DNA from: Spraguea lophii
Lineage: Eukaryota; Microsporidia; Spragueidae
NCBI GenBank assembly: GCA_001887945.1
Contig: LDOQ01000166.1
Location: forward strand, 54,494-118,493
Direction: 5' to 3'
DNA length: 64,000 nucleotides
Position numbers and translations under genes: made by a program. Under the pieces are notes generated by a model. It was given only the letters and a program-made list of their open reading frames with translations. It made no database searches and was not told the origin of the DNA. The first letter of the stretch is position 1; each line of letters starts with the position of its first letter. Of this stretch, positions 657 to 61,863 are shown piece after piece.

Positions 657-1108
657 AACTTATTTAACTGAACGTTTATGAAGTGGTAACCAAATCTCAA
701 GCTTAACGGATTCGAATCACTCACTCATCAAGAAGAATTTTCAAAAAACATAAAAAATAGATGGAGGAAGGAAAAAAGGATTTACGTGGGTTTGATAATG
801 TAATATTAACCATGTCTTGTACAACGTTCTCACTATTAGGTTAAGTAGTTTTTAGCTAGTGTAATTGTAATTCCTATATTAATTTGTGATGCAGCCACTA
901 TTATAATAATGAGAAGATCAAAATATTATTAAAGATGATCCAGTGACGATTGTACCATATACAAAGACATAACTCTCCACAACATAAAATAGGATGAGAT
1001 TAATATATATACACGTAAAATTAATTAATACAAGTTTAAGAGGAACCAAAAATCATAAGTTACAACCAACTAGAAAACTTCGATAAATAAAAATCTTATT
1101 AAAAAATA
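657..1108 (+). repeat. tRNA-derived SINE-like element, copy 1
   Basis: Diverged near-full-length copy in + orientation. The head keeps a B-box-like GATTCGAATCA at 709-719, and a decayed A box TAACTGAACG... lies exactly 44 bases upstream at 665. The body is alignable with the reference copy at 15570-16069 (for example, gatgagattaat near 993-1004). The 3' end is gataaataaaaa followed by A-rich sequence at about 1081-1108. No flanking duplication was found. It lies downstream of the RNR2 gene, which ends at 1164 on the other strand. Confidence 0.75.
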
Positions 1109-1163: not shown

Positions 1164-2141
1164 TTAAAAATCTTCGTTGATATCAAATTTCTCGCTTCCT
1201 GCTTGACCTTTCTTTATTCCCACGTATGGTCTCTGGTATTCTGCGACTCTTTTTTCAAAGAAATTGGTTTTTCCTTGTAAAGATATATTTTCCATGAAAT
1301 CAAATGGATTTTCAGTGTTGTAATGTTTAGAGAATCCTAGATCAACTAAGAGATTGTCAGCCACAAATTCTATGTAATTACACATAGATTTACAGTTCAT
1401 TCCAATTAAACTTACGGGTAGACTTTCAGAAACAAATTCTTGTTCAATTGCTACTGCTTCTTTAACTATTTCGATTACTGTTTCATATGGTGCTTTTTCT
1501 TCTAAGTGAGCATTTAAGAGACATGCAAATTCAACATGCACTCCTTCATCTCTACTGATTAATTCATTGGAGAAAGTAAGACCTGGCATTAATCCACGTT
1601 TTTTAAGCCAGAATATGGATGCAAAAGATCCAGAGAAGAAAATACCTTCTACGCACGCAAATGCAATTATTCTTGTAGCAAAACATGATTTTTTATCCGT
1701 TATCCATTTCATAGTCCAGTCTGCTTTATTTTTAATTGTTGGTATTGTAGAAATTGCGTTAAATAAAAAATCTTTTTTCTCTTGTTCTCTAATATATGTT
1801 TCTATTAGCAATGAGTACATCTCAGAATGTATATTTTCTATCATTATTTGGAATCCATAAACACATCTAGCTTCTGGTATCTGAACTTCCGCTGCAAAAT
1901 TTTCTAAAAGATTTTCATTAACAATCCCATCTGATGCTGCAAAAAATGCCAACACATAACTTATAAAATGTCTTTCATCATCATTAAGACCATTCCAATC
2001 GTCTAAATCATTAGATAAATCTACTTCTTCAGCAGTCCAAAACGATGAAAGTGCCTGCTTATATAAATCCCATATACGATCGTATTTTATTGGAAACAAA
2101 ACAAATCTATCTTCAGTTGGTGTCAATAGTGGTTCAGCCAT
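1164..2141 (-). CDS. RNR2: Ribonucleotide reductase small subunit (class Ia R2)
   Basis: A 325-residue R2 protein that carries the di-iron centre and tyrosyl radical for reduction of ribonucleotides to dNTPs. Typical blocks are visible: the FVLFPIKY start block, [10 protein letters not shown], a helix with [24 protein letters not shown], and [12 protein letters not shown], which supply the iron ligands. The C-terminus ends in FDINEDF, the tail that docks on the large subunit (compare FTFNEDF in yeast). The length is shorter than yeast R2 at the N-terminus, as is usual in microsporidia. The start at 2141 is the first Met, preceded by ACTCC rather than a clear CCC. The large subunit is not in this window. 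Confidence 0.97.
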
Positions 2142-2481
2142 GGAGTAAAAAATTTGCGAAATATTTATAGCTAAAAACGGTCGAAAAAATCATAAAAAAA
2201 TAAAAAGACTGGAAATTATAATTGATTTTTATAAAAAATAAATGTTAATTGTTTTAAAAATGAACAAGCAGATTAATAGTGTTTATTGTATTTTATAAAG
2301 TAAATAATATTTTTTTTGTAAATGAATTTTTTTAAGAATAATCAATAATATATTTTAAATTGTTTGTAAATATAAATGTTATATTTTCTATAATTGATAT
2401 ATTTTAATTAATTTATAATTTTTCTAATACTAGAACGATAATTCTATTTTGTTTTTATTTTTATTAATTTGTTTTTAATTT
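2142..2481. other. AT-rich intergenic stretch
   Basis: Upstream region of RNR2 up to the next repeat copy. It is almost only A and T, without an open frame or recognisable motif. Confidence 0.5.
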
Positions 2482-2930
2482 TAGTTGTTTGGTCTAATGG
2501 TCGTGGAGTGGTAACCAAACCCTGAGCGTGCTGCGTTCGAATCACTCCTATAGAAAAATTTTCACAAAAAGAAATAATAGTAAAAGAATAATAGAGTGGG
2601 TGCTCAATAGCGTCGCATTGGTTATGCCTTGTACGATGGCCCTATTACTAGATTAAAGCAATATTTAGCTGGTGTATCACAATCCCTGTATTGATTTGTG
2701 ACCCAACCTATACTATGCCAATAAGAAGATCTAAATATCATTAAAGATGATAGAATGATTATTATACCATACGCAAAATCCCAACTCATTGTAACATAAG
2801 ATAAGATTAGTGTATATCTGTAGTTAACCCAGTTAATACGAGCTTAAATGTGTTTTAAAAATTAAAGGTCATAAATTGCGATATATTACAACAGACCAGA
2901 AAATTTCTATAAATAAAATTTCAATAATAA
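2482..2930 (+). repeat. tRNA-derived SINE-like element, copy 2
   Basis: Near-full-length copy in + orientation with a well preserved head. The A box TGGTCTAATGG at 2490-2500 fits the Pol III consensus TRGYNNARNNG. The B-box region CGTTCGAATCA lies at 2534-2544, giving the same 44-base spacing as in the reference copy. The body includes the gagtgggtg segment near 2593 and an aagataagattag segment near 2806. The 3' end is ctataaataaaatttcaata near 2910-2930. Confidence 0.8.
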
Positions 2931-3172
2931 ACAAAAGTTTTACTTTTTTTAGCATATAAATATTTTATAAAAATAAAATACCTGATTAAAAATGTGTTTA
3001 TTTTAATAAATAAATAACTTATTATATATAATCACATATATTGAATTAACTAACATACTTAACTGGTTAGGTTATAAATTACTTGGATATTTAGATGTTA
3101 TATTATAATCTTGAATATGTTATAGATAATAAAATATATTTTTAATGAAATTCTATAAAAAAATCTACCCTC

Positions 3173-3580
3173 ATGGAAATAAGATTAAGCTCTTTTAAAA
3201 AAAATTATGGCCTTGAACAACTTTTATCTAAAGATGAATCTACATATTGGTATACTGATGGAAGTTTACCTCATTATATAGAAATATCATTCAGAAAAAG
3301 AACGTATGTAGAATATGTACAAATACTTTTTAGTTTTTCAAAAGATGATTCCTACACACCTGATTATTTTGAGGTATTGGTTGGTGATACAAAAGATACT
3401 TTACAGAAATATAAATCTATAACAATGGTTGAGCCAGAAGGATATACGCTGGTAAATATCAACTTACATTGTGTATACATTTATATAAATATATTACGAA
3501 ATTGTCAAGAAGGAAGAGATAGTCATGTAAGACATTTGATAGTAAATACACAACAACCAAGAGATATGCAATGTAAATAA
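3173..3580 (+). CDS. APC10: Anaphase-promoting complex subunit 10 (DOC domain)
   Basis: A 135-residue protein consisting almost only of the DOC/APC10 jelly-roll domain. APC10 helps the APC/C ubiquitin ligase recognise destruction-box substrates. The diagnostic C-terminal block CQEGRDSHVRHLIV corresponds to the NHQNGRDTHIRQ block of APC10, and earlier parts (YWYTDGSLPHYIEISF and the Y-V-Q-I-L-F strand) fit the fold. The start is the ATG at 3173, preceded by CTACCCTC. The C-terminal tail that binds CDC27 in animals (an IR ending) is not evident; the protein ends in QCK. Confidence 0.88.
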   Translation: MEIRLSSFKKNYGLEQLLSKDESTYWYTDGSLPHYIEISFRKRTYVEYVQILFSFSKDDSYTPDYFEVLVGDTKDTLQKYKSITMVEPEGYTLVNINLHCVYIYINILRNCQEGRDSHVRHLIVNTQQPRDMQCK

Positions 3581-4911: not shown

Positions 4912-7548
4912 TTATTCAGAAAGATAACCCATTGATTTTAAAACTAAATAAGCACCTTCATCTTGTATCCTAAAAATGTAATGTTCAGTAACTTCATCGT
5001 ATTCAAATAAATTATTCAAATCTAAATCTTCTCCAAATATACTGATTAAATACCCTCTTAACCGGTTATATAAAATTAAACCATATTTTTCATTTTTCAG
5101 ATATTCGTTCATTTCATTTATTATTGATTGGAAAGTAAATTTACTGAAAAACTGTTCAAGAATGTATTTTTTATCGTAAAGCTGTCGTATTTTTGACATA
5201 TTACCATGTAAATTTGGTACTTTTTCGAATCCAAGTTCTGCTGATAATATATTTCTCCACATTAAGAATGTTTCTCGTTCTTCACCCTCATCTCTGCCAG
5301 TAGTGATTGATTCAAGTACAGCAAATTTATGATTTGTTATTATTTCTATTATTTTATGTTCAGCACTACTACAGTCATCGTTTAATTTAAGTCTCATATA
5401 TGCTTCTATATATGCTTCACCTTGTCCATCTAAACAATGAATATTATCATTAGTAGTATTTATTTTAAAATTCAATGAGTGTAAAAGTCTGACGAGTGTA
5501 TCATTTACAAATTCTTGTTGTTCTGGTAACAATTCAACCATCATTATAACAACGGCTTCAAAATAATCAATAATTGAATTTGTTTTTTGATACTCCCTAG
5601 GTGCTGATGATTCTTGAAATTGATTCTCATCATAACAATAGTATTGATCTATTCGATTTAACAAAAAGTCTAATTTTTGTTCGCGTTTATATGTTATATA
5701 TTCTGAAATATATTTTAACATATCTTCAACTTGCTTTTTTGTTTTTGTATGTTTTTCTGGTTTAAATGATTTACATAATTTTATCTTATCTAAATTCAAT
5801 TTATTACTAATATTAAGATTGTCATAAAAGTTTTTAACATTTAAATCAAGGTTGATGTATTCAAGTCTTCTTTCTCCATTATATCTGATATTTGTTAAAA
5901 CGTCATTATTTACTTCTTCAATGCCAATCAATCCCGATTCCCAATTGACATAATTCATTTGTCGTTGTAAAGGATTATTAAGTAGATCTATTTGTAAATT
6001 CATATTGCTCATATTATTAATGTTAATTGGGAGAAATACTATACGATTGGTGTATAATCTTAGTTTCTCAAGAGTATTTATATTAAATATACTACCAACT
6101 ATTGTATATATTTGATTATATGATAAATCTATTACTTTTAATGAATTATTTGTTCCAAAAACATTTTCAAGGACAACTATTTGATTGCGGTGTGCTATAA
6201 AAGTCTCTAAGTTGGAAAACTTGAATATACTTTGAGGTATTCTGGTTAAAAAACATGTAGATAAATCCAAATACGTAATTTTAGAATCGGTTGGTACATG
6301 TTCGAATATATCAATATTACCATCAAACTGTTGTTTACAACTGATATTTAATTTGAATATTCTATTGTAATAGAATATGTTCTGTAATACACTTATATCT
6401 TTAAGATATAAATTAAGATATAATGAATCATCGTCACTATAAGGATATTGCTCGATCTCTGTAAACATGTTATTAGATATAATACAAATTCCAACTCGGT
6501 TTAATATTTTAAAAATATTTCTGTCGAGTTTAGAAAATTTATTTTTAGACAAATTAATATGTTCCAAATTTTGTAATGAATTATCAGAAATTGATATTTC
6601 ATGTATTATATTTCCATAAAGATGTAATTTCATCAGAGTATTAAACATTCCATCCATGATAATTAATTTTTCAATATGGTTCAATGACATACATAACACT
6701 TTTAGATTAGAAAAGGATTGTAATGTATGGGGTATTTCTTCAAATAAATTTTGTGTGAGATCGAGTTCTTCTAAATTTATAAAATTTAAAAAAATTCTAG
6801 GTAAATCCCTTAAATTATTACCACAAAGATATAAAAATTTTAAACATTTATAAGTTTCACATTGTAAATCGGCATTAGAATCTTGATTAAACTCTGCTTC
6901 ATTTGGATTAGAAGGCACATCTGAATATTCGGAATGACAAGTGAGGGTATTATTTGGAAATAATGGTTTGTTATATGACAAATCTAAATTTTTCAGATTT
7001 GTTAATCTAAACAAGTTTAGATTAATGCTAATTAGAGTCTCAAAGCAGCTAATAAAAAAATTTTCAAGTGCATTCATTTGGATTATTTCAGAAGGTATTG
7101 TTTCAATCTTATTATCGATTAGATAAAGGACTTTCAATTTCGGTAATAAAAAAAGAACTTTGGGAAATTCTTTAAATTTATTTCCTTTTAAATATAGCTC
7201 TTCTAATTCCTTAATTTTTTCGAATTGAATTGGTAATGTTGATATATTGAGATCATTAAGTTTTAGAATTTTAAGATTATCAATATCACAAAAAAATTTA
7301 GGAAGTATATTATAATATGTTTCTGGATCAAAGTTATGTAAACTTTTTATCTCTATTATTTTACCAGTTGTATTGTGTTCTTGTACTATAAATTTGCATG
7401 AGAAATCAGGATTATTCTTAATGTCACTAAATAACTCGGTTTCATAAGGATGAGGTATTAATTCTTGTACAACATCATAATTCTTAGAACTTATTGTATA
7501 TGTTCTACAGTTCATCAAAGATAAAAATAATAGCAATAGAAAATTCAT
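4912..7548 (-). CDS. Large secreted leucine-rich repeat protein
   Basis: An 878-residue protein. It begins with a hydrophobic signal peptide (MNFLLLLFLSLMNC). From about residue 75 to 545 there are many leucine-rich repeats of the LxxLxLxxNxL type (LEELYLKGNKF, LKVLYLIDNKI, LEELDLTQNLF and so on), interrupted by an acidic Asn/Ser-rich insert near 205-235. The last 310 residues form a helical, LRR-free domain with a candidate functional Cys at 705 (codon at 5434-5436). The C-terminal domain weakly recalls the NEL ubiquitin-ligase domain of bacterial LRR effectors. Upstream is CCCCC then ATG, a clean microsporidian start. A paralogue in opposite orientation starts at 61864. It is a likely secreted or exported protein; its function is unproven. 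Confidence 0.88.
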   Translation of the reverse strand: MNFLLLLFLSLMNCRTYTISSKNYDVVQELIPHPYETELFSDIKNNPDFSCKFIVQEHNTTGKIIEIKSLHNFDPETYYNILPKFFCDIDNLKILKLNDLNISTLPIQFEKIKELEELYLKGNKFKEFPKVLFLLPKLKVLYLIDNKIETIPSEIIQMNALENFFISCFETLISINLNLFRLTNLKNLDLSYNKPLFPNNTLTCHSEYSDVPSNPNEAEFNQDSNADLQCETYKCLKFLYLCGNNLRDLPRIFLNFINLEELDLTQNLFEEIPHTLQSFSNLKVLCMSLNHIEKLIIMDGMFNTLMKLHLYGNIIHEISISDNSLQNLEHINLSKNKFSKLDRNIFKILNRVGICIISNNMFTEIEQYPYSDDDSLYLNLYLKDISVLQNIFYYNRIFKLNISCKQQFDGNIDIFEHVPTDSKITYLDLSTCFLTRIPQSIFKFSNLETFIAHRNQIVVLENVFGTNNSLKVIDLSYNQIYTIVGSIFNINTLEKLRLYTNRIVFLPININNMSNMNLQIDLLNNPLQRQMNYVNWESGLIGIEEVNNDVLTNIRYNGERRLEYINLDLNVKNFYDNLNISNKLNLDKIKLCKSFKPEKHTKTKKQVEDMLKYISEYITYKREQKLDFLLNRIDQYYCYDENQFQESSAPREYQKTNSIIDYFEAVVIMMVELLPEQQEFVNDTLVRLLHSLNFKINTTNDNIHCLDGQGEAYIEAYMRLKLNDDCSSAEHKIIEIITNHKFAVLESITTGRDEGEERETFLMWRNILSAELGFEKVPNLHGNMSKIRQLYDKKYILEQFFSKFTFQSIINEMNEYLKNEKYGLILYNRLRGYLISIFGEDLDLNNLFEYDEVTEHYIFRIQDEGAYLVLKSMGYLSE

Positions 7549-7890: not shown

Positions 7891-8352
7891 AGAAATTTTT
7901 TTATTTATCGAGACTTCCTGGGCAGTTACAATTTAACCAGGTCTATACCCTTTGATTCCCAAAGCACATCTAAATTTGTACTGGCTAATTTCGCTACAAA
8001 TATGCATTAATTTCATTTCATCCTATGCTCCAGCATATTGGGATTTTGCGTATGGTGCACGCTACTGTCCCCTTAGCTTTTTAAAGATTCCCAACCTTTT
8101 TCTTGACATAGTATTGTTGAGTCACAAATCAATACGGGATTGCAACTACATCAGCCAAACATTACTTTAATCTAGTAATGGCCCATCATACAAGATACAG
8201 CCAATGCTATGTTATCGAACCCTCACCCATTCAACAATTTTTCTCTTCTTTCTACTTTTTTATTTTTTTCTGAAAATTCTTCTAAATGAGGGATTCGAAC
8301 CCGCCATGCTTAGGTTTAATTACCACCTCATGATTACCGGGTTAAGTGGGTC
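7891..8352 (-). repeat. tRNA-derived SINE-like element, copy 3
   Basis: Near-full-length copy in - orientation. The 3' end lies at the left (gaaatttttttatttatcgagacttcctgg). The tRNA-like head lies at the right, with a perfect B box GGTTCGAATCC (complement of 8291-8301) and a decayed A box near 8334-8345. The body matches the reference copy over much of its length. An open frame of 72 codons on the + strand here is a by-product of the repeat. Confidence 0.8.
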
Positions 8353-12451: not shown

Positions 12452-12920
12452 CAGCCTGCATAACTGAATGGTGGAGGATGGGGACCAAATCTCAAGCCTA
12501 GCGGGTTCGAATCCCTCATCCAGAAGAATTTTCAAAAAAAATAAAAAACAGAGAGAAGAGAAAATTTGTTGAGCGAGTGAATGTTCAATAATTTAATATT
12601 AATTGTGTCTTGGGTGATGGTCCGCCATTATATTAAAGTAGTGTTTAACAGGGTAATTGCAATCCCCGCATTGGTTTGTGACGCGCTCAATTCTATGCCA
12701 AGAAAAAAGTTAGCAATCTTTAAGAAACTTGGAAAAAAGCTCGACGTACACCATATACAAAATTTGAATGCTCTGGGACATAAAGTAAGATGAAATTAAT
12801 CCATATCTACAGCGAAAGCTATTGGTACAGGTTTAAAGGCATTTTAAGAACTAAAGGTCATATACCACGGTACGGCAATTGACTAAGAAACTTTTATAAA
12901 TAAAAATTACATTAAAAAAT
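12452..12920 (+). repeat. tRNA-derived SINE-like element, copy 4
   Basis: Near-full-length + copy. The B box GGTTCGAATCC is perfect at 12504-12514. The A-box position (12461-12471) reads TAACTGAATGG, a variant shared with copies 1 and 13. The body keeps gttgagcgagtgaat, tgaaattaatcc and other blocks of the reference. The 3' end is tttataaataaaaattacattaaaaaat. A 70-codon open frame at 12581-12793 lies wholly inside the repeat and is not considered a gene. Confidence 0.82.
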
Positions 12921-13793: not shown

Positions 13794-14756
13794 TTACCTT
13801 CTTCTTTTTTTAAAAATAACGAAATATAAAATAAAAGCAAGAGAGATACCTAAAATCTCCTCATAATAAATAAAAACATTATACACTAATGAATATTTTG
13901 ATTTATATAGAGATTCTAAACGTGCCGATTCATATTCGGATGTTACTAACCTGGCTAAGAAATTTACAGCGTAAATTAATTCATCCACGTTATCTAATTT
14001 TTGATTTAGTTGCACCTTAATAAAGGTTCTTAATCCCATAAACTGTATTTTACCCCAAAGTTTGCATTTTTCACACGCGGTACAATTCAGAACAAGTAAA
14101 GCCTTATCTAACACATCTAAAAGATCTGGATTTACGTAATATTGATCAACATCTAATATTACTGATTGTATATCATATATTTTATTTAATTCAGGTTTTG
14201 TAAACAATTCTTCTATTTTTTCAATATTCATTTTTTTAAAAGAATTTTTTGCGAATTTTAACAATTTCAAAAAGTTTACCTTTCCTTCGGGCTTACAAAT
14301 CTTTCCGAATAAACTTGGATTACAAAGAAATATTCCACCCATTTTTTTATAAAATGCACATATATGCACCGAAATAGAATATTGTACACCTGAAAGTACA
14401 CTTTTATAAAATCCATCATTACTTAAATTCACCAATGCCATCCAAACTTCACGTGCCCCCTCCTTATACCCTGTATATGCTTCTGGAACCTTTAAAAGAT
14501 CAACCAAAGTTAACTTCTCCTCTTTTGATTTTCTTTTATTTTTCAATTTCGCCTTATCCATTATTTTTCCATTAAGAGGTACAGAACAATCCCCATAACA
14601 ATATTGTGCCAATTCAGGAATTTCACAAGGTGTAGACAAATCTATATATACTCTTGAAAATATAGAATGCCTTGATAATTCCAAAACATTAGATCGTAAG
14701 AATGTATCTTTTTCAACCATCAAACAACACAAAGAAAGTGAAAAGAATAAAAACAT
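13794..14756 (-). CDS. ERO1: ER oxidoreductin ERO1
   Basis: A 320-residue ERO1, the FAD-dependent oxidase that recharges protein disulphide isomerase in the ER lumen. Seen are a signal peptide (MFLFFSLSLCC), the CYGDC shuttle-cysteine-like block, the YTGYKEGAREVW block typical of ERO1, and the active-site CTACEKCKLWGKIQ (CxxCxxC). It is much shorter than yeast ERO1 (563 residues), but a C-terminal hydrophobic segment followed by KKRRR could anchor it in the ER membrane. The start at 14756 follows CCCC; the frame open to 14798 lacks support. Confidence 0.93.
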   Translation of the reverse strand: MFLFFSLSLCCLMVEKDTFLRSNVLELSRHSIFSRVYIDLSTPCEIPELAQYCYGDCSVPLNGKIMDKAKLKNKRKSKEEKLTLVDLLKVPEAYTGYKEGAREVWMALVNLSNDGFYKSVLSGVQYSISVHICAFYKKMGGIFLCNPSLFGKICKPEGKVNFLKLLKFAKNSFKKMNIEKIEELFTKPELNKIYDIQSVILDVDQYYVNPDLLDVLDKALLVLNCTACEKCKLWGKIQFMGLRTFIKVQLNQKLDNVDELIYAVNFLARLVTSEYESARLESLYKSKYSLVYNVFIYYEEILGISLAFILYFVIFKKRRR

Positions 14757-15555
14757 AAGGGGAAACAATATTTGTTGTTTATATAGTTGATATATCAAAT
14801 GAGTAAGTTATACAAAATCATAATGAAAAAAGTAATATATCACATATAATAATAAACATCTATGATTCTCAATAATATTTTATTTGTAAATATAAAAATA
14901 TAAGATCTTTGTAACACTAAGATATTAAATAATCATATTAAGAAATCATTATAATGATTGATACATCAAGATGATATATATTAATACATATCATTAAATA
15001 TATTTATTGTTTTTAATAAGAGAAAATAATTACATACATTCAATCTACTATTATTAAAAAAAATAATAGAACCTTGTAATTTTAAAAGAAGAAATATCGT
15101 TAGCTGATCATTCCTCTTGATCTAAGAATGAGAATAATAAAGAATATAAATAAAATATTATCATTATAATAAACATTATTCTTTTTTACAATTAAATGTT
15201 TTCTTAACAACAATGATAATTATATTCAATAATTTACAATTAAATATATATACACATATCAAAAGAATATACAAATATTGATATTAAAGAAAATAGTAGA
15301 GATAATTAGTTTTGATTTTAAAAGATACGGAAAATCAGATATTGAGAATGTAAACTGTGAATAAAAATATCTCTATATGATAAAAAGAGATTAATATATT
15401 TCTATTATAAATTTTACTTTTACATCTTTTTTAAATAAATATTTTTTTTCAATTAAATTTTAAATTTAAAAGAAATTATTCTCTACAATATTAACTGTTA
15501 TTTTATTTTACGTATGGTTACTGGTAATAATAATTGAATAAATAAATATTTATTA
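14757..15555. other. AT-rich intergenic region
   Basis: About 800 bases between ERO1 and the reference SINE-like copy. There is no gene, RNA gene or clear repeat. Confidence 0.55.
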
Positions 15556-15569
15556 TTCTTTACATTATT

Positions 15570-16069
15570 TTTTTTTACGAATGAAACTTTTATTTATCAA
15601 AGCTTCCTGGCCGGTTGCGGCCTACCATGGTCTGTGACCTTCGGTTCCTCGAGCGACATTAAACTTGTACTAACTGGTTTCGCTACGAATATGCATTAAT
15701 CTCATCTTACCTTATGCTCCAGAGTGTTAGGATTTTGCGTATGGTGCGCGTCGCCGCCCCCACTTCCAGCTCTTAAGGAATTCCCAGCCTCTTTCGTTGC
15801 ATAGTATTGGCCGAGTCACTAATCAATACAGGGATTGCAACTACATCAGCTAAACACTACTTTTTTAATCTAGTAGCGGGGCCGTCATACAAGGCACAGC
15901 TATGCTGCACTATCGAAACCTCACCCACTCAACAACCTTTTTCTTCTCTTCTGCGTTTATTATTATTATTTATTTTTTTTTGTTTTGAAATTTTTTTCTG
16001 GATGAGGGATTCGAACCCGCCAGGCTTGGGGTTTGGTTACCACCCCACGACCACTGGGCCAGGCGGGAC
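15570..16069 (-). repeat. tRNA-derived SINE-like element, reference copy 5 with target-site duplication
   Basis: Best-preserved full-length copy, 500 bp, - orientation. The tRNA-like head starts at 16069 with GTCCCGCC, then a perfect A box and B box. The body of about 350 bp has no tRNA similarity. The 3' end is GCTTTGATAAATAAAAGTTTCATTCGT followed by a run of A (T on the + strand, 15570-15576). The 14-base sequence TTCTTTACATTATT stands directly at both sides (15556-15569 and 16070-16083), a target-site duplication. A 94-codon open frame on the + strand is incidental. The local base composition is visibly more GC-rich than the neighbouring DNA. Confidence 0.9.
16007..16061 (-). promoter_or_regulatory. 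Internal Pol III promoter (A and B boxes) of the SINE-like element
   Basis: On the minus strand, TGGCCCAGTGG (16051-16061) fits A-box consensus TRGYNNARNNG at every position. GGTTCGAATCC (16007-16017) fits B-box GGTTCGANTCC. Their start-to-start distance is 44, as in a tRNA gene. The flanking head does not fold into a fully paired tRNA (mismatch in the T stem), so it is read as a promoter rather than a functional tRNA. Confidence 0.85.
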
Positions 16070-16271
16070 TTCTTTACATTATTATATATAAAATATAACC
16101 TCAGTAATAATAATAATTGAAGAATTAAAATAATGATAATATTATTATACGTTGATAAGATAAAAACATTTACAATTTATTCTTATAGAAAATATATAAA
16201 TGTTACTAAACATAAAAATATATTAGTAATCAAATATAAAAAAATATCTAAATATTTTTATAATCCCCTTA

Positions 16272-16961
16272 ATGGTAGAAGAAAATCTTATCGAGTTAGT
16301 ACGTAATTCTAATATTGAAGAAATTATAGATATGTATAATTCTGGTAATATAAAAAAAGAAAATCATAATAAATTATTAGAATTATTAGGAGAAGAAGAA
16401 AAAAAGATGTTTTTAAATTGTATAAAAGAGGATTATTCTGAATATAAAAGTTCTGATAGTAATATAATTTCTAAATATATGAAAAATTCATTTACTGGAG
16501 ATAAAATAATTAAGATATTTTATTCTTCTATTTTAGAAATAGTAGATGATGTTGATTTTGGTATTGCTGCATTTATTTCTTCTAAAATAGAAGAAAATAT
16601 CAGGATGGATGGAAAATTAGACGATGCAAAATTTATTCGTTCTAAACTTTTAAATTTTCGAGATAAAAATAATTCATTGTGTATTGATATTTACAATGGT
16701 CTTCTTTCACCACAAAAATTTGTTAGAATGACATCAGAAGAAATGAAAAGTGATTCTATGAAAAAATTAGAAGAAAAAGTTAGATCGAAATCTGTATTGG
16801 ATTCATCTGTTGCAAAGGAAGAAGCGGAAACTGATATATTTTTCTGTACAAAATGTAAACAACGAAAATGTTCGTATAGGCAATTACAAACAAGATCTGC
16901 AGATGAACCAATGACTACATATGTTTATTGTATTTGTGGAAATACGTGGAAATTTTCTTAA
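16272..16961 (+). CDS. DST1: Transcription elongation factor TFIIS
   Basis: A 229-residue TFIIS, which rescues stalled RNA polymerase II by stimulating transcript cleavage. The central helical domain spans about 75-165. The zinc ribbon (190-229) has CTKC, QTRSADEPMTT with the acidic DE pair that enters the polymerase active centre, and the closing block. The closing zinc ligands read C-I-C-G instead of the usual C-x-x-C-G, one residue short. The N-terminal LW domain seems reduced to about 50 residues. The start follows CCCCTTA. Confidence 0.93.
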   Translation: MVEENLIELVRNSNIEEIIDMYNSGNIKKENHNKLLELLGEEEKKMFLNCIKEDYSEYKSSDSNIISKYMKNSFTGDKIIKIFYSSILEIVDDVDFGIAAFISSKIEENIRMDGKLDDAKFIRSKLLNFRDKNNSLCIDIYNGLLSPQKFVRMTSEEMKSDSMKKLEEKVRSKSVLDSSVAKEEAETDIFFCTKCKQRKCSYRQLQTRSADEPMTTYVYCICGNTWKFS

Positions 16962-20649: not shown

Positions 20650-21125
20650 AAATAATATTTAATTATTATCAAAGTGTGTTAATTGGTTTGACCGCCAGGA
20701 TCTAAAACCATTGGTTCTTTAGAAATACAAATATCTTTTATTAATTAATTTCGATACATTTATGTATAACTATCATTTCATTTTATCCTTCAAAATGTTA
20801 GAATTTTGTATGTAGTATAATCATCATTTTCCAATCTTTTTTTGGGGGGGGTGAGTTTTTAATCTCCTTCGTGGTATAATACTAATCTGGTATTGAATCG
20901 ATGTAGAGATTGCAACCACATCAACTAAACAATACTTTAACATACAACTAGAATTGTCATACAAAATATAATCAAGTTGCCTTATAAAACCTTTACCCGT
21001 TTGATCATCTCATAATCATCTTCTCTTCTATCTTTTATTTCTTTGTTTTGAAGAATCTTCTGAATGAAGGATTAAAACTTGGTATTTGGTTATTGCTTGA
21101 CTTTACAATCTTTTGATTGATAACA
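20650..21125 (-). repeat. tRNA-derived SINE-like element, copy 6 (decayed)
   Basis: Strongly diverged - copy. The left end ttattatcaaagtgtgttaattgg matches the element's 3' end. The middle keeps segments such as attgcaaccacatcaactaaacaatacttta. The right end retains the remains of the tRNA-like head (gaaggattaaaacttggtatttggttattgc). Both Pol III boxes are destroyed. A run of eight G occurs at 20845-20852. Confidence 0.65.
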
Positions 21126-22339: not shown

Positions 22340-22410
22340 CCAAAAAATTTATTGATTTTTTTTTACGAATGAAACTTTTATTTATCAAAGCTTGCCAAAA
22401 AATTTATTGA
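22340..22410 (-). mobile_element. Minimal 5'-truncated SINE insertion with 16-bp target-site duplication
   Basis: The sequence CCAAAAAATTTATTGA stands at 22340-22355 and again at 22395-22410. Between the two copies are only 39 bases: a T-run followed by acgaatgaaacttttatttatcaaagcttg, the exact 3' end of the SINE-like family (compare 15577-15606). This is what target-primed reverse transcription yields when it aborts early. Confidence 0.9.
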
Positions 22411-22517: not shown

Positions 22518-22965
22518 TTTTTAATAAAACTTTTATTTATCGAAGTTTTCTGATTGATTATAATTTATAATTTTATGATATTTGGTTCTTAAAGCATATT
22601 TAAATTTGTATTAACTGGTTTTATTATAAATGTACATTAATCTCGTTTTATTATATGTTCAAAAGTGTTAAGATTTTGTGTATTATGTACGATCCCCTTT
22701 TTTTAAAGATTCCTAACCTTTTTCTTACCATAATAATATAAAGTCACAAATCAATACAAGGATTGTAACTATGCCAGCCAAACATCACTTTGATCTAATA
22801 ATGGAGTGTCATGCAAGACATAGCTAATATTGCGCTATCAAATACTCATTTACTCAATAACTTTTCTTTTCTATCTTTTATTCTTTTTTTTGAAATTTTT
22901 CGGAATAAGGAATTTGACTCGCCAAGTTTAAGATTTAGTTACTACGATCACTGAACCAAGCAGAT
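22518..22965 (-). repeat. tRNA-derived SINE-like element, copy 7
   Basis: Near-full-length, moderately decayed - copy. Left end: ttaataaaacttttatttatcgaagttttctg. Right end: the tRNA-like head, with the A-box position reading TGGTTCAGTGA (complement) and a damaged B box. Body blocks such as gtcacaaatcaatacaaggattgtaac are well kept. Confidence 0.78.
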
Positions 22966-28136: not shown

Positions 28137-28598
28137 AATCTATTTAATCAAATGGTCATTAGAAGGTAACTAAATTAAAGGCATGGTGTGTTCGAATCCC
28201 CCACCCGGAATAATTAAATAAAAAGTAAAAGAGAAGAAGATTGTTGAGTGGGTGAGGTTCGATAGCATAACATTGGTTATACTCTATATAACTTCAATTT
28301 ACTAGATTACAGAGGTATTTAACCAACGTGACTACAATTCATGTATCAATTTGTGGTTCAGCCAATATTATCATAATAACGAGATTAAAAACTTCTAAGA
28401 AGCCGGTATGGAAGTGGCAGCATACATCATATACAAAACCCTAACATTCTTAGCCATAAGGTAAGATGAAATCAATGTATACATGTAATAAAAATAGTTA
28501 ATATAAATTTAAATGTGTTTCAGGAACCAAAGGTTATAGACTACAATAAGCTGTAGTTAACCAGGAAACTCCTATAAATAAAAAATTCATTAAAAAAT
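28137..28598 (+). repeat. tRNA-derived SINE-like element, copy 8
   Basis: Near-full-length + copy between NSF and the next gene. The A-box position (28145-28155) reads TAATCAAATGG. The B box TGTTCGAATCC at 28189-28199 is nearly perfect, and the spacing is 44 as in the others. The body includes gttgagtgggtgaggttcgatag (28232-28254) and aaggtaagatgaaatcaatg. The 3' end is ctcctataaataaaaaattcattaaaaaat. Confidence 0.85.
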
Positions 28599-39846: not shown

Positions 39847-39920
39847 ATCTTTTTTTAACGAAACTTTTATTTATAGAAGTTTCTTGACTGCTTGCAGACT
39901 ATTATAGCTTATAACTTTTT
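39847..39920 (-). repeat. 5'-truncated SINE-like fragment
   Basis: The left part reads gatctttttttaacgaaacttttatttatagaagtttcttgactgcttgcagactatta, which matches the family's 3' end in - orientation. It fades out after about 70 bases. No duplication was identified. Confidence 0.65.
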
Positions 39921-42248: not shown

Positions 42249-43469
42249 TAAAAGGGGAATTTTTAAATGAACTTTTTTATAAAAAAATTATTTCAGAAGT
42301 TTATGTTAACACACAGTATAAAAGGTTCTAGATCATGATGAATTGTAATCATATGGGAAATTATTATAAATAAAAGTTTTATTTGTATAAAAACTGTAAT
42401 CAAACAGAATGTGTTATATTTTCATTTTTTTAAATATTTTTAATGATAAATATTATAGTAATTGTATTAATCTTATTTTACATTATGAATTAATTTCATT
42501 GAGTATTGTTAAATATAATTAATAATATCATTTTTTAAAGCTGTATTTTTCTATTAAATTTTATTCTTTACAAATTATTATAAAGTTATATTTTTTATAG
42601 ATCTAAGATGTTTTTGTTCATTCAGAAATCTTCTTTATTTAATGGAAAATAAATTTATAAATAATTTTAATTGAAATTTCAATATGAATTTTAAATTTTC
42701 TTGTTTCTTAGAAGAAATGATAAAGCTAATATAACTTTACATTAATAATAGATGTTGTGTCATACTAAATATTTATTTAAATATTTTCTATATTTTTTTA
42801 TTTCTTGTGACTTTAATTCTAACATAAAATATATTTTGAAATTGTGATTATTCCTTATATATTTTATTTCTAAAGAATTATAATCTTTGCTACATTAATT
42901 TCTTTAAAAATATTAACTACGAAAAAATTTTGAAAAAAAGATGAATATTAGTGTTTATTTACTTTCTTAATTTTCTTTATATTTAGTATAACAAATGGAA
43001 TGGGTAATATTACAGTATCCTCAGAAAATTGAAAGCGTCTCTAAGAAGGATTTATAAAAATTTTATTCTCCAAGGTTTAACCTTTTAGAGCAACCAAATC
43101 CGTCAATTCAATTTACCATTAAACCAGACAATCTAATTTTATGTGATATTTAATATTATTTTAAGGTTACACTGAAAATTACTGGAAATCGAATATTCAG
43201 ATTAGGAGTTGAGTTGAAGAATAGGAAGAATTAATTGAATAGAGTAAAAAAGTAAAAGAGTATCATAAATAAAAATTTCTTATGTTTTAAAAAAATGGAA
43301 ATCGAATATATTACTAGAGATGATATTCCTGTAATAAACACACTCAATTATCACACGAAAGGAATTTAAAGATTTTAAAAGCTGTAGGATATTGAAATAA
43401 TTAATTTTTCAAATCAATAGGAATATTTCCATAAAGATATGTGTATGAGGATTTCATAGAATATCGGCA
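42249..43469. other. Long AT-rich intergenic region
   Basis: No intact gene. At 42364-42395 and near 43262-43290 short matches to the SINE 3' end occur (tataaataaaagttttatt; cataaataaaaatttctta), too short to be sure. Confidence 0.4.
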
Positions 43470-48269: not shown

Positions 48270-48417
48270 CTGTTATGGAGGGGTAATTTTTTTAATGATA
48301 ATGATTGTTACAAATATCTTTCAATAGATTTTAATATAAAACTATCTGATTGTTTGTTTCAAATATCATAATCTAATAAAATATAAAATATAAAAAGTAG
48401 AATAAATTTTATATGAC

Positions 48418-48660
48418 AAATAAACAATAAATAGTAAATGATAAAAAATTATAAAATAATTTATAAGTGTTAAATGATAAATAAATAATAATACAAAAAT
48501 ATTTATAGGTGTTAAATGGTAAATAAGCGATATTACAAAATAATTTATAAGTGTTAAATAGTAAATAACTAATATTACAAAAATATTTATAAATTTCATA
48601 GAATAAATAAACAATATTACAAAATAATTTATAAATCTCATAGATACAATTTTTAAATAA
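48418..48660. repeat. 42-bp minisatellite
   Basis: At least five units with an exact 42-base period: the anchor tttata occurs at 48460, 48502, 48544, 48586 and 48628. A consensus unit begins tttataagtgttaaatg and ends with tattacaaaataa. Because 42 is a multiple of 3, the minus strand stays open for 91 codons with a repeating 14-residue pattern; I do not regard it as a gene. It separates Ubc7 and uS17 on divergent strands. Confidence 0.85.
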
Positions 48661-51447: not shown

Positions 51448-51921
51448 TAATATTACGTATTATTTTCACGTATTAAAAGATAAATTTATATTTCTATATG
51501 ATAGATGTAAGAAGTAAGATAAGTTTTGTGTATTTTTGTACCTATGATTCGTTATATTATTATTATTTCTATTAATAAAAATTATATATAATGAAAATAT
51601 TTTATTTTGTAAACTTTATTTATAGTTTCTGTTTAATTTTGTGATAAATTATACCACGTCTATAATAATCTGAAGAATAATAAATATTTAATTCTTAATA
51701 AATTTAATTTGTCTCTTTATAGATTATCTTCTTTTAATTTAAAATACAAGTCGCTTCCCATATTAAAGATTTTGAAAAGTCTTCAAACAAAAAAATATTA
51801 TATCTTATATATCAAATATTATTGCTTGATAATAATATTCGCAATAAGCTTGAAGTATTAAGGTATAATATATTGTTTAGAGACGGAACAAGATTATTAT
51901 GCGATAAAAAAGGTGTTTTCA
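51448..51921. other. AT-rich intergenic stretch
   Basis: Downstream of the dolichol kinase gene, up to the truncated SINE copy. No gene or repeat recognised. Confidence 0.45.
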
Positions 51922-52092
51922 AAATTCCAACACTCTGGAGCATAAGGTAAGATGAGATTAATGCATATCTGTAGCGAAACCAGTTAGTACAAGTTTAATT
52001 TCGCTCGAGGAACCGAAGGTCTCAGACCATGGTAGGCCGCAACCGGCCAGGAAGCTTTGATAAATAAAAGTTTCATTCGTAAAAAAAAAAGG
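51922..52092 (+). repeat. 5'-truncated, near-consensus SINE-like copy
   Basis: About 170 bases of the element's 3' part in + orientation, nearly identical to the reference copy at 15570-16069. It starts inside the body (caaaattccaacactctggagcataag) and runs to gataaataaaagtttcattcgt, followed by a run of ten A. Few differences over this length make it one of the youngest copies seen. A perfect target duplication could not be assigned because both flanks are A-rich. Confidence 0.88.
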
Positions 52093-52482: not shown

Positions 52483-54144
52483 ATGAAATCAAATATAAAA
52501 AAGATCTCTGGATATACAGAATTTCAGAATGAGCCTTATGTATTTGTTGTATGGGAGGATAGAACTGCTACTTGGGAAAAAATAAATAGTATAAATGCAC
52601 CAATATTACTTATTAACTTTTTATCGAAAGTTGATGAAAAATTTAATCTTTTTGAAAAACAGCAATCTTTAAAGATTAAGAAGGAAAATCAGAAAAATTT
52701 TATTTCATCTTTAATGAGTAAGAGAAATATAATTAAAAGTAAAGCTGAGGTTGAGAGGAATAAAACTTTAGAGGGAATAAAATTAATGAGGAAGAAATAT
52801 GATCCGACGGAAAGTGACATTAGCAAATCTACACGAGAGGATTCTAAAAAACTCAATAAAAAATTTGATAAGAAATTTAAAGAAGAAAAAATAAAAAATA
52901 AAAAAAACGATATGAATCTTGTAACTATAAAAGATTTTAAAAAGAATATAAAACAAATGAATAAAAATGAATTTATAGAAATAAAAAATACAAAAATACA
53001 ACTGGGATATAATTTATTGGTAAATAATGAAAATGTTGGTATGTTTACAATATTACCATTATTTTATGAAAGTGAATTTCCCAAATTAGAATTCCATGTT
53101 CAGTTTACTATCAGTTTTTTAGAAGTAAAAACAATCTTAATTTCATATTGGCAAGGATTATTAGAAGGAATACAATTTTATTCTTTAGTAGAATCCAATA
53201 TTAAGGATAATTTCAGATCCTTAGCTTTACAGTTAAAAGAAGAGGGGAATTGTTTAGTAGACAATACAGGCACAATAATTTATATTTTGGTTCCTAAAAT
53301 ACCTCAGTTTGAGATTTATAATTTAGATTCACAATATTCTCTTATTTGTATAAAAAAAGAATTATTCAACCTTCATTGTGATATAAACTTTCAAAAATAT
53401 GAAAAAAATACAATAAATTATTCTAATACAGATATTTACGAATTATATAAGAATAAACTATTCTATAATTTGCCTGAAAACATTGAGAGTTATGGATTAT
53501 TTATGGATAATTTGAATCCTAACGAAAAAGATCTTGTATGTTATTTAAATAATCTGGGATACGTACAAAAAGATCTTTCGTGTAAAGATATATCGTGTAT
53601 AATTATAAGCGTAGAATATCTACAATACATCCATCGCATTCCAAATTTCAAACATTTTATTGAAAATAATACAAGATTTTTTATATTTGATATCAAAAAA
53701 AATACGGTTCTTACAGAAATATTTATATCGGGAGGTATTATAACCGTAACAGAAAAATTAATAAAAACGCTTGATACTATGGAAGTCATACAAATTTTAA
53801 AATCTATACAAACTGATGATGGAAAATGGAAATTAAAGGTTCCTAGTTATCTTGTAGAAAATTATAAAAAATATCTTGAAGAAAATAACAAAAAGATCAG
53901 ATTTACAGAAATGGTAGAAATATTTAATATTTTAAAAAATTCAGTTGAAGATTTTACTAATGATACGGAAGATAATAAAATCCATTTCTTAAAAGATTTT
54001 AATACTAATTTATATTTGAAAAGATTGCAATCCAAACATTTCATATCAAAAAGACATTTTTTGGCTATGTGTGTTGATGAAACTAAGAAAACATCCACAC
54101 CAGAACAAATATTTTCAAAATATTTTAAAAAATCATCATTATAA
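52483..54144 (+). CDS. Chromodomain-like protein
   Basis: A 553-residue protein. The first 50 residues fit a chromodomain: KKISGYTEFQNEPYVFVVW, then TATWEKINSINAPILLINFLSK, parallel to IVGxRxxxGxxEYLVKWKGxxxxxxTWEPExxLxCPxLIxxF. A Lys-rich coiled segment (60-165) follows. The remaining 390 residues have a folded look but no family I recognise; the stretch YGLFMDNLNPNEKDLVCYL to EIFISGGIITVTEKL could be a BRCT-like or Rossmann-type domain. HP1- or Chp1-like heterochromatin function is inferred. The start follows TACACCC. Confidence 0.68.
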   Translation: MKSNIKKISGYTEFQNEPYVFVVWEDRTATWEKINSINAPILLINFLSKVDEKFNLFEKQQSLKIKKENQKNFISSLMSKRNIIKSKAEVERNKTLEGIKLMRKKYDPTESDISKSTREDSKKLNKKFDKKFKEEKIKNKKNDMNLVTIKDFKKNIKQMNKNEFIEIKNTKIQLGYNLLVNNENVGMFTILPLFYESEFPKLEFHVQFTISFLEVKTILISYWQGLLEGIQFYSLVESNIKDNFRSLALQLKEEGNCLVDNTGTIIYILVPKIPQFEIYNLDSQYSLICIKKELFNLHCDINFQKYEKNTINYSNTDIYELYKNKLFYNLPENIESYGLFMDNLNPNEKDLVCYLNNLGYVQKDLSCKDISCIIISVEYLQYIHRIPNFKHFIENNTRFFIFDIKKNTVLTEIFISGGIITVTEKLIKTLDTMEVIQILKSIQTDDGKWKLKVPSYLVENYKKYLEENNKKIRFTEMVEIFNILKNSVEDFTNDTEDNKIHFLKDFNTNLYLKRLQSKHFISKRHFLAMCVDETKKTSTPEQIFSKYFKKSSL

Positions 54145-54390
54145 ATTAAAGACAATAAAATAAATGGAAATAAACCATTATAAGATATTATTTCCTTCAA
54201 TTTACGTTTGTTTTTATAATTCCTCATTATAATTATAAGATGGTATTTAACATAGGTTGATATTTAATTAAATATACCCAACAAAAATTATTCATCAACG
54301 AGGTGCTATTTATATTTAAATATATTATTTATTATAAAACGTTTCTTATTTATCATTTTCTTTTAAACAACATATTTTTTCTTATTTTTA
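54145..54390. other. AT-rich intergenic stretch
   Basis: Short spacer after the chromodomain gene. No gene seen. Confidence 0.4.
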
Positions 54391-54630
54391 AAATGAAACT
54401 TTTATTTATAGAAATTTACTATTTCCTAACGATTCATCATAATTCATACCTTTGGTTTCTAAAATTTTTTTGCTTCTAATTGTTACATAGTATATACATT
54501 AAACTTATTTACCTTATGCTCAGAATATTATAATTTTATATATGGTATAAATCTTCACATTTTCCTGTTGTATATGATTTTCATTATTGTCATGATATAG
54601 TATTAGCACAGTTAATAATAAACTATTTTT
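54391..54630 (-). repeat. Decayed, 5'-truncated SINE-like copy
   Basis: Left end tgaaacttttatttatagaaatttac matches the family's 3' end. It continues through acctttggtttctaaa, caccttatgctcagaatattataatttt and ends near atagtattagcacagttaataataaac, which corresponds to the middle of the element. The tRNA-like head is absent. Confidence 0.68.
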
Positions 54631-58963: not shown

Positions 58964-59443
58964 TTTTTTTATTAATGAAGCTTTTATTTATCAAAGTTCC
59001 CTGGCCGGTTGCAGCCTACCATTGTTTATGACATTTGCATCTAAAGCACATCTAAGCTTGTACTAACTGGTTTCGTTACAGATATGCATCACCCTCATCT
59101 TAGCGTATGATTCGAACGTTAGGATTTTGCGTATGATGCACGTGCCGCTCCTCTCAACTTTTAAGGGAATCCCAACCTCTTTCTTGTCATAATATTAGTC
59201 GAATCACAAATCAATAGAGAGATTGTAATTACACCAATTAAACACTAGTTTAATCTAGTAACGGGACGCCATACAAGGCACAGTTAATCCGTGCTATTGA
59301 ACCCTCACTCGCTCAACAACCTTTCTCTTTTTATCTGTTTTTTTTATTATTTTTTTTGTTTGAAAATTTTTCTGGGTGAAGGATTCGAACCCGTTAGGAT
59401 TGTGGTTTAGTTACCGCCCAGCGACCACTGGGCCAAGTGGACT
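58964..59443 (-). repeat. tRNA-derived SINE-like element, copy 12
   Basis: Full-length, well preserved - copy. Left end: attaatgaagcttttatttatcaaagttccctggccggttgcagcc. The head at the right keeps a perfect A box TGGCCCAGTGG (complement of 59425-59435) and perfect B box GGTTCGAATCC (59381-59391), spacing 44. The body matches the reference closely, including gattgtaattacaccaattaaacactag. No target duplication is obvious. Confidence 0.88.
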
Positions 59444-59772: not shown

Positions 59773-60232
59773 GTCCGCTTATAACTGAGTGGTTGTGGGA
59801 TAATAACCAAATTTCAAGCATAATGAATTCAAATACCACACATAGAAGAATTCAAAAAAACAGGTAGAAGTGGAAGGGAAAGATATTGAGTAGGTGAAGA
59901 TTCGATAGAGTAACTTGATTATATTTTACATCACACTCTGCTATTGATTAACTCACTATTTAACTGGTATTAATACAATCGTTCATTGTTTTACGAGTTG
60001 ACCGATAACTATATCAAGAAAGACGTTAGAAATCTTGTTAATAATAGTAAAATGATGATTGCATCATGAGTAAAATTTTAATTATCTGAAACATAAGATA
60101 AGATGGGATTCATACTATCTGTTGTGTAACCAGTTAGTACGAGTTTAAACATACCTTATTAACATAAGAACATAAAGCATTATAGGATGAATCAATTAGG
60201 AAACTTCCAGGAATAAAACTTTTACTAAAAAA
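59773..60232 (+). repeat. tRNA-derived SINE-like element, copy 13
   Basis: Near-full-length, diverged + copy, in inverted orientation 330 bases from copy 12. The A-box position (59782-59792) reads TAACTGAGTGG, as in copies 1 and 4. The B box (59826-59836) is mutated to AATTCAAATAC. The 3' half is clear: acataagataagatgggattcat, taaccagttagtacgagttta, and aacttccaggaataaaacttttactaaaaaatg. Confidence 0.75.
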
Positions 60233-61863
60233 TGTTATTTTGTTATGATTTACATTACATTTATATTTGTTTAAAATAAGAAATAAAATAGTTTTTAGCA
60301 ACATTTTGACTATATCTAAAACTTCTTGATGGTTGTTATTATTATACTCAGAAATAAAGATTCTTTAAGAAAAATATATATAGTTTCAATTAGTTTCACT
60401 ATATAAATATCATAATCTTATTTTATTTCATTCTTCCGGTTTTTTATATATTTATGCATAAAACACAATGATAATTATTACGATGTTTTTTTACTTTAAT
60501 TAATATTTTTTATTTTTTTGAAGAATTTCTATGATATTCTAACTTTCATAATAAGTTAGTATACAACTACCAACCAAGTTTGATTGTTTTTTTGATTTAC
60601 ATGATCAATATATTGTCGTTATATAATATTATTTTGAGAATAAACACGTGTATCATAAATTATAAAGATGATTATTAGTTTTTTAATTGGGAATTCTACA
60701 GTTAATACTTGATTTATCTTCAAAGATTTTTATACATTTAAAAGAAATATTAAAACTTAACAATTAGTTAGTGTTTAATAGATATAAAAAATATAGTAAT
60801 ACAGATATAAATATATTATAATTATTGTCATTGTTGATCATATAAAGTTTTTTAATGAACATTCTTCAAGAAAAGTGGATTTTTATTTAAATTATATAAC
60901 AAGTACAAACCAATAATATTCAACGTTTATAAACAATTATATATCATTTCAAAACAAAATAAAAATATATAACCTAACCTAAATTATAGAAATATTTAAT
61001 TAAGTGTTTCTTCTCATTCTTATCAAGGACAAAAAATAAAAAAAATTCTGAATATAAATCAATTTATATATATTCTTATCAAATAATATTTTATACCAAA
61101 TATATTTTTTATATTATTAATTTATATAAGAAATTCTTTTATACGTATTATTTTAACCATATTATACATATAAATAAAAAGGATTCTCTTCCAACATTAA
61201 TGTATATTTTTTTTATTTTATTATAAATATTATTTTTTTTCTATTATAAAATTTATTGATTTTTTATTCTCAAAAATAATATTAGTAAAACAAAAATAAT
61301 TTCGTAAATCAATAAAAAAATCAAAGAAAATTTTACAGTAAAAATTAAAATAACTTATAAAAAACTATGAATCTTTTAATATGTTTTATTTTTTTTAAGA
61401 CCGTATATAAAAAATATATTTCTATTTTTTTGATAAATATCTTAATAAAATATTCTAGAAAAAATAAAATAAAAAATATTTTTGTATTTCTATTTATTTT
61501 CAAACATGTTTTATTGACTATATTATAATTACAATTATATGTAACACCTTAAACTCTGTAAAATTATTAGAAAAATCATCACTTTTATCTACCCATTTTC
61601 TTATATAGTTAACGTATCTTGCAAATATTACATATTTTTATGTGAAATGTTTGACAGTTTAAATCATTATTTCAGGTACTTCAAAACATTTTTTTATAAT
61701 TTTGTTTTTTGAGTTATTTTTATGTAAATTTGAAACTATCCTAATTTCTCACACTATATTTATGAATTTCTTTTTGGAATTATTCTTATCATTTAAAAAT
61801 ATTTATTTAAATATAAAAAAATTGATAAAAAAACTATATAAGAAAAAGAAAACCCTTACTTTT
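60233..61863. other. Long AT-rich region upstream of the second LRR gene
   Basis: About 1.6 kb without an open frame of interest. aacctaacctaa stands at 60971-60982. The CCC signal of the LRR gene lies at 61853-61855. Confidence 0.5.

Follow-up and report, generated by a model that had tools for sequence, protein, structure and literature searches.

The eel pair UnaSINE1 and UnaL2 is an example of a tRNA-class SINE with a 3' tail derived from a LINE, and target-primed reverse transcription (TPRT) is the established mechanism by which LINEs and SINEs are inserted. A family of short elements in the microsporidian Spraguea lophii is likened here to the UnaSINE1/UnaL2 type by its architecture, which appears to combine Pol III boxes at the head, an unrelated body and a 3' hairpin region common with a LINE, along with short target duplications and 5' truncations. 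It is distinguished from that type by its microsporidian host, by a head that no longer folds as a tRNA and by the spacing of the shared 3' region, in which the LINE has about 100 nt more between core and terminus than the SINE has.

The sequence-only reading of this DNA had taken the known mobile elements of microsporidia to be LTR elements and DNA transposons. This is contradicted by passages of earlier reports in which LINEs have already been described from S. lophii (PMC3749934, PMC4202319, PMC4948709). The non-LTR retrotransposons of Spraguea and Trachipleistophora in the sections concerned (PMC3749934, PMC4202319, PMC4948709, PMC3486916) come from the same genus or from a relative, have in common the non-LTR reverse transcriptase (RT) and may include the partner LINE considered below. 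The word 'SINE' is absent from the main texts of PMC3749934, PMC4202319, PMC3486916, PMC4948709, PMC8206274, PMC4435813, PMC7313128, PMC12449221, PMC13174016 and PMC12558613, and no description of a microsporidian SINE is present in the text available for the matches listed from the open literature, which took in few subscription papers and no preprints. A table for Nosema bombycis lists a SINE class of 28,669 bp, or 0.18% of the genome (PMC3614468); the label is common to both systems and stands in the table passage without sequence, promoter, duplication or partner. The earlier statement that no tRNA-SINE of this kind was known to have been described from microsporidia stands for characterised families in the literature searched and has to be qualified by this tabulated class, and the Nosema bombycis listing means that the family cannot be claimed as the first SINE in microsporidia. 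Within the portions of the literature searched, it is a new SINE family of a known type, from a lineage without a characterised SINE.

We conclude with high confidence that the element is a tRNA-class SINE of about 490 nt with Pol III boxes and a 3' part shared with a LINE, inserted by TPRT, long resident and recently amplified. The class assignment, already proposed from the letters of the window, is supported by the box geometry, the duplications, the 5' truncations with a fixed 3' end, the absence of inverted repeats, the non-coding nature of the element and the presence of a LINE partner with the same 3' region.

Organisation of the element and its copies in the window

The window, which is the whole stretch of 64,000 nucleotides analysed (C4:54494-118493 in a searched genome of 5.27 Mb and 73 contigs), carries one full-length young copy and a number of older ones (Table 1). 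The uL3 protein encoded in this genome matches chain LB0 of PDB 7qca along all 392 residues of that chain at 866 bits, against 471 for the next best sequence. As 7QCA is the ribosome of S. lophii (PMC10522483), and as the published S. lophii genome, with 23.4% GC and 4.98 Mb assembled (PMC3749934), is in agreement, this one protein and the composition point to S. lophii or a very close relative, a microsporidian very probably infecting fish. The order along the element is a 72-nt head, an A-rich linker, the body, an AT-rich tail and an A-run. A consensus of 492 nt with 45.7% GC has been derived from the full-length young copies, 41 in number. Within it the A box TGGCCCAGTGG begins at position 9 and the B box GGTTCGAATCC at 53, which gives a spacing of 44 nt. 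The two copies of the duplication AATAATGTAAAGAA that flank the window SINE are identical at 14 of 14 nucleotides. The neighbouring frames encode ERO1 (13794-14798) and TFIIS (16272-16961), one on either side, and the copy is therefore intergenic.

Table 1. Coordinates of SINE features and copies in the window
Feature	Position	Strand	Remark
SINE copy, full-length, 500 nt	15570..16069	-	1.4% off consensus of 41 full-length copies
Target-site duplication, 14 nt, 5' copy	16070..16083	-	AATAATGTAAAGAA in element sense
Target-site duplication, 14 nt, 3' copy	15556..15569	-	
Head, tRNA-like, 72 nt	15998..16069	-	no cloverleaf fold, no Rfam tRNA match
A box TGGCCCAGTGG, Pol III internal promoter	16051..16061	-	exact in 41/41 full-length copies
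B box GGTTCGAATCC	16007..16017	-	GGTTCGANTCC in 40/41 full-length copies
3' core, two predicted hairpins	15605..15653	-	common to LINE family 3' UTR
AT-rich terminal tail with GATAAATAAAAGTTTCATTCG	15577..15604	-	similar to LINE 3' end
3' A-run	15570..15576	-	
SINE copy, decayed, 77%	680..1100	+	
SINE copy, decayed, 76%	2488..2925	+	
SINE copy, decayed, 81%	7899..8350	-	
SINE copy, decayed, 76%	12468..12913	+	
SINE copy, decayed, 68%	20690..21092	-	
SINE, extreme 5' truncation	22358..22393	-	last 36 nt only, own 16-nt duplication
SINE copy, decayed, 74.5%	22523..22963	-	
SINE copy, decayed, 72%	28153..28591	+	
SINE, young, 5'-truncated	51920..52087	+	last third, 98% to consensus, duplication not found
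SINE copy, decayed, 83.5%	58966..59440	-	
SINE copy, decayed, 73%	59785..60225	+	

No ATG-to-stop frame in the consensus exceeds 54 aa, the length of one in antisense, and no coding version of the element has been found among the copies examined. The ends of the element are not terminal inverted repeats, with a local score of 5 where the top tenth of 200 shuffles begins at 6. The full copy with its boxes, A-run, perfect 14-base duplication and lack of coding capacity, as described from the letters alone, is thereby confirmed and lies on the minus strand. That description had named inverted repeats, an autonomous coding version and inconsistent 3' ends or duplications as arguments against a SINE; neither of the first two is seen in these comparisons, and the 3' ends and duplications of most copies are consistent.

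A profile search of the window at a threshold of E<=1e-5 gives 11 matches, 10 of which cover at least 413 of the 492 consensus positions, the other being the 5'-truncated copy, matched at 51920-52085. Weaker matches to the SINE tail occur at 39850-39901, 42366-42393 and 54385-54409, and short A-rich matches at 52870-52909 and 60946-60972 have been left out on account of their low complexity. The earlier count of about ten near-full-length copies agrees with this search; of truncated or decayed pieces it had given at least six, and five further pieces have been found. No standout duplication is associated with the relics of the window, the longest word shared by their flanks being 10 nt, a figure taken without a control.

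An imperfect 42-nt tandem repeat in AT-rich DNA (48406-48657) and an inverted pair of 290 nt at 72% (7074-7363 and 62052-62341) have also been observed. The first arm of this pair is inside an LRR gene (4912-7548), which suggests that the two arms are probably related genes. Searches of the window for plasmid sequences, and with ARAGORN and Rfam, gave no match.

Pol III boxes and parentage of the head

In 25 relics of less than 90% identity the A and B boxes, taken as a pair, retain a higher identity than all 408 slid placements after correction for the per-base mean decay. Taken singly, the A box does not rank first in retention, single windows elsewhere scoring as high; the best-retained single 11-nt windows start at 114 and 56, the latter falling within and past the B box. 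The head is followed by TTTT in 29 of the 41 full-length copies, by TTTTT in one and by TTT in five including the window copy, while six were not parsed. As judged from sequence, a run of four T at this place could end Pol III transcription early or limit it. There is no depletion of T runs on the sense strand, one being seen against 0.97 expected.

The description of the head as tRNA-like is borne out by the geometry of the boxes and not by its recognition as a tRNA: it has no predicted cloverleaf fold, it has no Rfam tRNA match at E<=1, and ARAGORN and Rfam run over the window do not match it. A tRNA or Infernal-type search had been proposed for naming the parent tRNA. The head has been compared with 57 host tRNA genes, comprising 48 distinct sequences, with z scores against mononucleotide shuffles, and the best alignments are to Ser(AGA) (z 6.2), Arg(TCG) (5.8) and Ser(GCT) (5.6), with no clear winner. 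The naming of a parent has been dropped, as several host tRNAs stand above the shuffles and none is decisive.

A 3' region shared with a LINE

A search of the genome for RVT_1 gives nine matches, which by eye comprise LTR-type elements, a TERT-like gene, decayed pieces and one LINE fragment (L017) at the start of contig C72. This fragment holds the putative APE and the start of the RT at the contig end, by which the RT is broken off, and its domains remain below threshold (Exo_endo_phos_2 18.7 bits, cut-off 27.4; RVT_1 18.6 bits, cut-off 29.6; both E 0.0016). Its RT part matches LINE-1 ORF2p in PDB at about 1e-9, its nearest protein (P0001) has the endonuclease domains PF14529/PF03372, and the closest database proteins, among candidates of at most 1.75 times the query length, are an ENA protein (31% over 99%) and Smittium culicis proteins labelled Transposon TX1. 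Judged by these similarities the partner LINE is probably of the APE type. Among the other RT frames, L009, L010 and L011 (C73, C48 and C44) have integrase-like parts by eye and are probably of LTR type, and L013 (C2:65028-68276) has long Asn-rich stretches and is TERT-like by eye.

The search for a LINE with the same 3' end, which had been suggested as a check, was successful. On contig C21 a LINE C-terminal frame is followed directly by a stretch that matches the SINE 3' core, and a search with the core pattern, allowing at most three mismatches, identifies eight LINE tails against none with the reversed pattern. Six of the eight stand behind the same LINE ORF C-terminus, at 72-100% amino-acid identity. 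The remaining two start at the core and have duplications of their own of 10 and 12 nt (C8:60800, L096, and C6:95001, L095); these are very short LINE insertions, and the 5' edge of the core may be a preferred stop of the RT. The identity of the core to the SINE is 86-90% over 49 nt in six of the eight tails, 93% over 43 nt in that of C6 and 82% over 62 nt in that of C67; in the commonest LINE form, 41 of the 45 nucleotides at the centre agree with the SINE, as counted by eye. The LINE continues for about 100 nt past the core, and seven of the eight tails end, with small variations, like ATCATAAATAAAATTTTCTTAT followed by an A-run, the terminus of the C61 tail being divergent. The resemblance of this LINE end ATCATAAATAAAATTTTCTTAT to the SINE end GATAAATAAAAGTTTCATTCG is equalled by 25 of 5000 mononucleotide shuffles, for one representative form.

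The same two hairpins are predicted for the cores of the SINE and the LINE (z -3.2 and -2.4, 2/200 shuffles each). Covariation in the hairpins is weak, the paired percentage being reached by 48 of 500 shuffles and the double changes by 15 of 500, in an alignment of 14 rows made up of the SINE consensus, five LINE forms representing seven of the eight tails (C6 left out) and eight hand-picked relic cores out of 21. The terminal tail folded alone is not stable in the LINE (z +0.92) and has a z of -2.41 in the SINE.

No continuous full-length LINE with both APE/RT and the shared tail has been found among the stretches examined. The 5' part is known from C72 and 3' parts with intact frames from C21, C63, C61, C67 and C11, and the APE/RT half is linked to the tail-bearing half by the fact that both match parts of one homologous protein (P0008). 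Next to the tail-sharing LINE part on C21 is another LINE 3' part (L055:1-1140), whose GC-rich 3' stretch is different, and frames there at 2045-3464 resemble by eye a LINE first ORF.

The LINE-like core and tail would also be expected if the whole element, body included, had arisen from the LINE by deletion, gained a Pol III promoter and used the same machinery. We regard this as unlikely, the consensus having no other match in the LINE stretches examined, none of which is a complete LINE; set aside in this comparison were the 3' core and tail, SINE copies and relics (L012, L056, C63), A-rich pieces and one 23-nt match with an E of 0.42.

Family size, age and decay

A genome search in which the best 40 of 433 first-look candidates were scored shows at least 40 places, counting that of the window copy, at which identity to this copy is 96-100%. 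Of those 40 places, 39 span position 1 to 498-500 and one begins at 13; at least three further partial places are listed. The 41 full-length young copies differ from the consensus by 0.2-2.5% and are biased to youth, being mostly the best-scoring places of the search. Density has been sampled in 134 kb, made up of the window plus seven stretches of 10 kb, placed by hand and not at random at round coordinates in four large contigs. This sample has 11 matches in the window and 10 outside it (4620 and 3260 bases), from which about 800 SINE pieces, or about 6% of the genome, are estimated by extrapolation from the hand-chosen 134 kb.

After matches with fewer than 150 aligned positions were dropped, 19 of the 21 sample matches entered the decay counts; three exceed 97% identity and 16 are at 68-91%, so that the majority of SINE copies are old. 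Single relics have decayed by 14-32%, yet 396 of 417 clear-majority positions show the base of the young consensus in the majority of 25 relics. The other 21 positions all differ by C>T, G>A or G>T; consensus positions were dropped where no base reached 50% or where fewer than 12 relics were present. The source has therefore remained nearly constant while its copies decayed towards AT. We put forward, as a rather improbable reading, that the SINE RNA is kept nearly constant over most of its approximately 490 nt and not at promoter and tail alone, which would give the body a selected role, in retrotransposition or in the cell, and that the SINE with its LINE would form an active system that also drives inversions between copies in this reduced parasite genome.

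According to the part of the report concerned, two Spraguea populations have a silent divergence of 3%, about 1.5% per branch (PMC4948709). Among the 41 full-length young copies, which are the best-scoring ones, 25 are at most 1.5% from the consensus, and on this comparison many would have been inserted at about the time of the population split or later. In this family long residence goes together with recent amplification.

The base composition of the element could be taken as a sign of foreign origin, by horizontal transfer from an animal host. The GC of the consensus, 0.457, is about 46% in a genome of about 24%, the 2-kb stretches of the window range from 0.18 to 0.30, and a high GC is likewise found in the LINE fragment L017 (0.433). 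Relics at 68-91% indicate long residence, which bears less on an ancient transfer, and G>A or C>T accounts for 1410 of the 2508 substitutions in the 25 relics, so that copies drift towards AT. A transfer is accordingly rated as improbable, slightly more so than descent of the entire element from the LINE.

Target-site duplications and mode of insertion

Duplications have been analysed in 48 young copies with usable flanks and at least 94% identity to the window copy, after removal of copies at locus edges (less than 40 nt of flank) and of duplicates in overlapping loci. Exact duplications of at least 7 nt flank 38 of the 48 and of at least 10 nt 36 of the 48, against 47 and 1, respectively, of 467 mismatched flank pairs. 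The lengths in these 36 copies are 10-17 nt with a mode of 14. Truncation at the 5' side has left elements whose first base is query position 13, 125, 334 or 465; all of these retain the 3' end and are flanked by duplications. In 13 of the 36 copies the head has an additional A in front of it, and the only target-site preference is an excess of pyrimidine at -1 (29/36).

Five of the ten copies without a duplication of at least 7 nt belong to rearranged pairs (two in L007, two in L008, one in L032); the other copy of L032 has a 7-nt, A-rich match that is probably due to chance. By eye, L003 and L082 have near-duplications broken by a mismatch or by extra bases, and three of the 48 (L004, L042 and the window copy at 51920) have no explained duplication. 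The pairs at L007:1501-2963 (C1:142809 region) and L032:301-1543 (C45:92443-93685) are opposed young SINEs with swapped duplications; flipping the 591- or 250-nt middle restores both duplications, which is probably the result of inversion by recombination between copies. In L008:1501-2557 (C11:44900-45956) a 79-nt SINE head, a 482-nt repeat of another kind and a full SINE follow each other in the same orientation, with similar flanks bracketing the whole block; the 482-nt repeat is dispersed and occurs also in L048, L005 and L061.

A short, non-coding, dispersed and duplication-flanked element might be a MITE-like non-autonomous DNA transposon with tRNA-like boxes by coincidence, and MITEs have been described in Nosema (PMC4405373). 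This has been rejected as very improbable on account of ends that are not inverted repeats by the shuffle comparison given above, a duplication length that varies and, contradicting it further, truncation at the 5' side with a fixed 3' end and an A-run. Contamination or an artefact of an assembly in 73 contigs can practically be dismissed, given the setting of the window copy between ERO1 and TFIIS genes, the duplications that young copies have of their own and the graded decay.

The duplications, the fixed 3' end with 5' truncation and the absence of inverted repeats are the products expected of TPRT. For the tRNA-class SINE preferred here, Pol III would be expected to transcribe the element from the A and B boxes in the tRNA-like head. 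Its 3' part, consisting of the two-hairpin core and the AT-rich tail, would have been acquired from, or be common to, the 3' UTR of a LINE in the same genome, and the LINE RT would recognise this 3' end in the SINE RNA, as the shared 3' end and the TPRT products suggest. Insertion of the RNA by TPRT would then give the duplications of about 14 nt, the 3' A-run and the occasional 5' truncation; these products are observed, and from them we infer the enzymatic step.

Implications

Microsporidia are models of genome shrinkage. One short parasite is estimated to occupy about 6% of this reduced genome of 5.3 Mb and has apparently been active recently. As many young copies are within 1.5% of the consensus, many insertions should be polymorphic between Spraguea populations, and such polymorphic insertions would serve as clean markers for ploidy and sex in these populations. 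The SINE/LINE pair is also a pointer to a small 3' recognition element.
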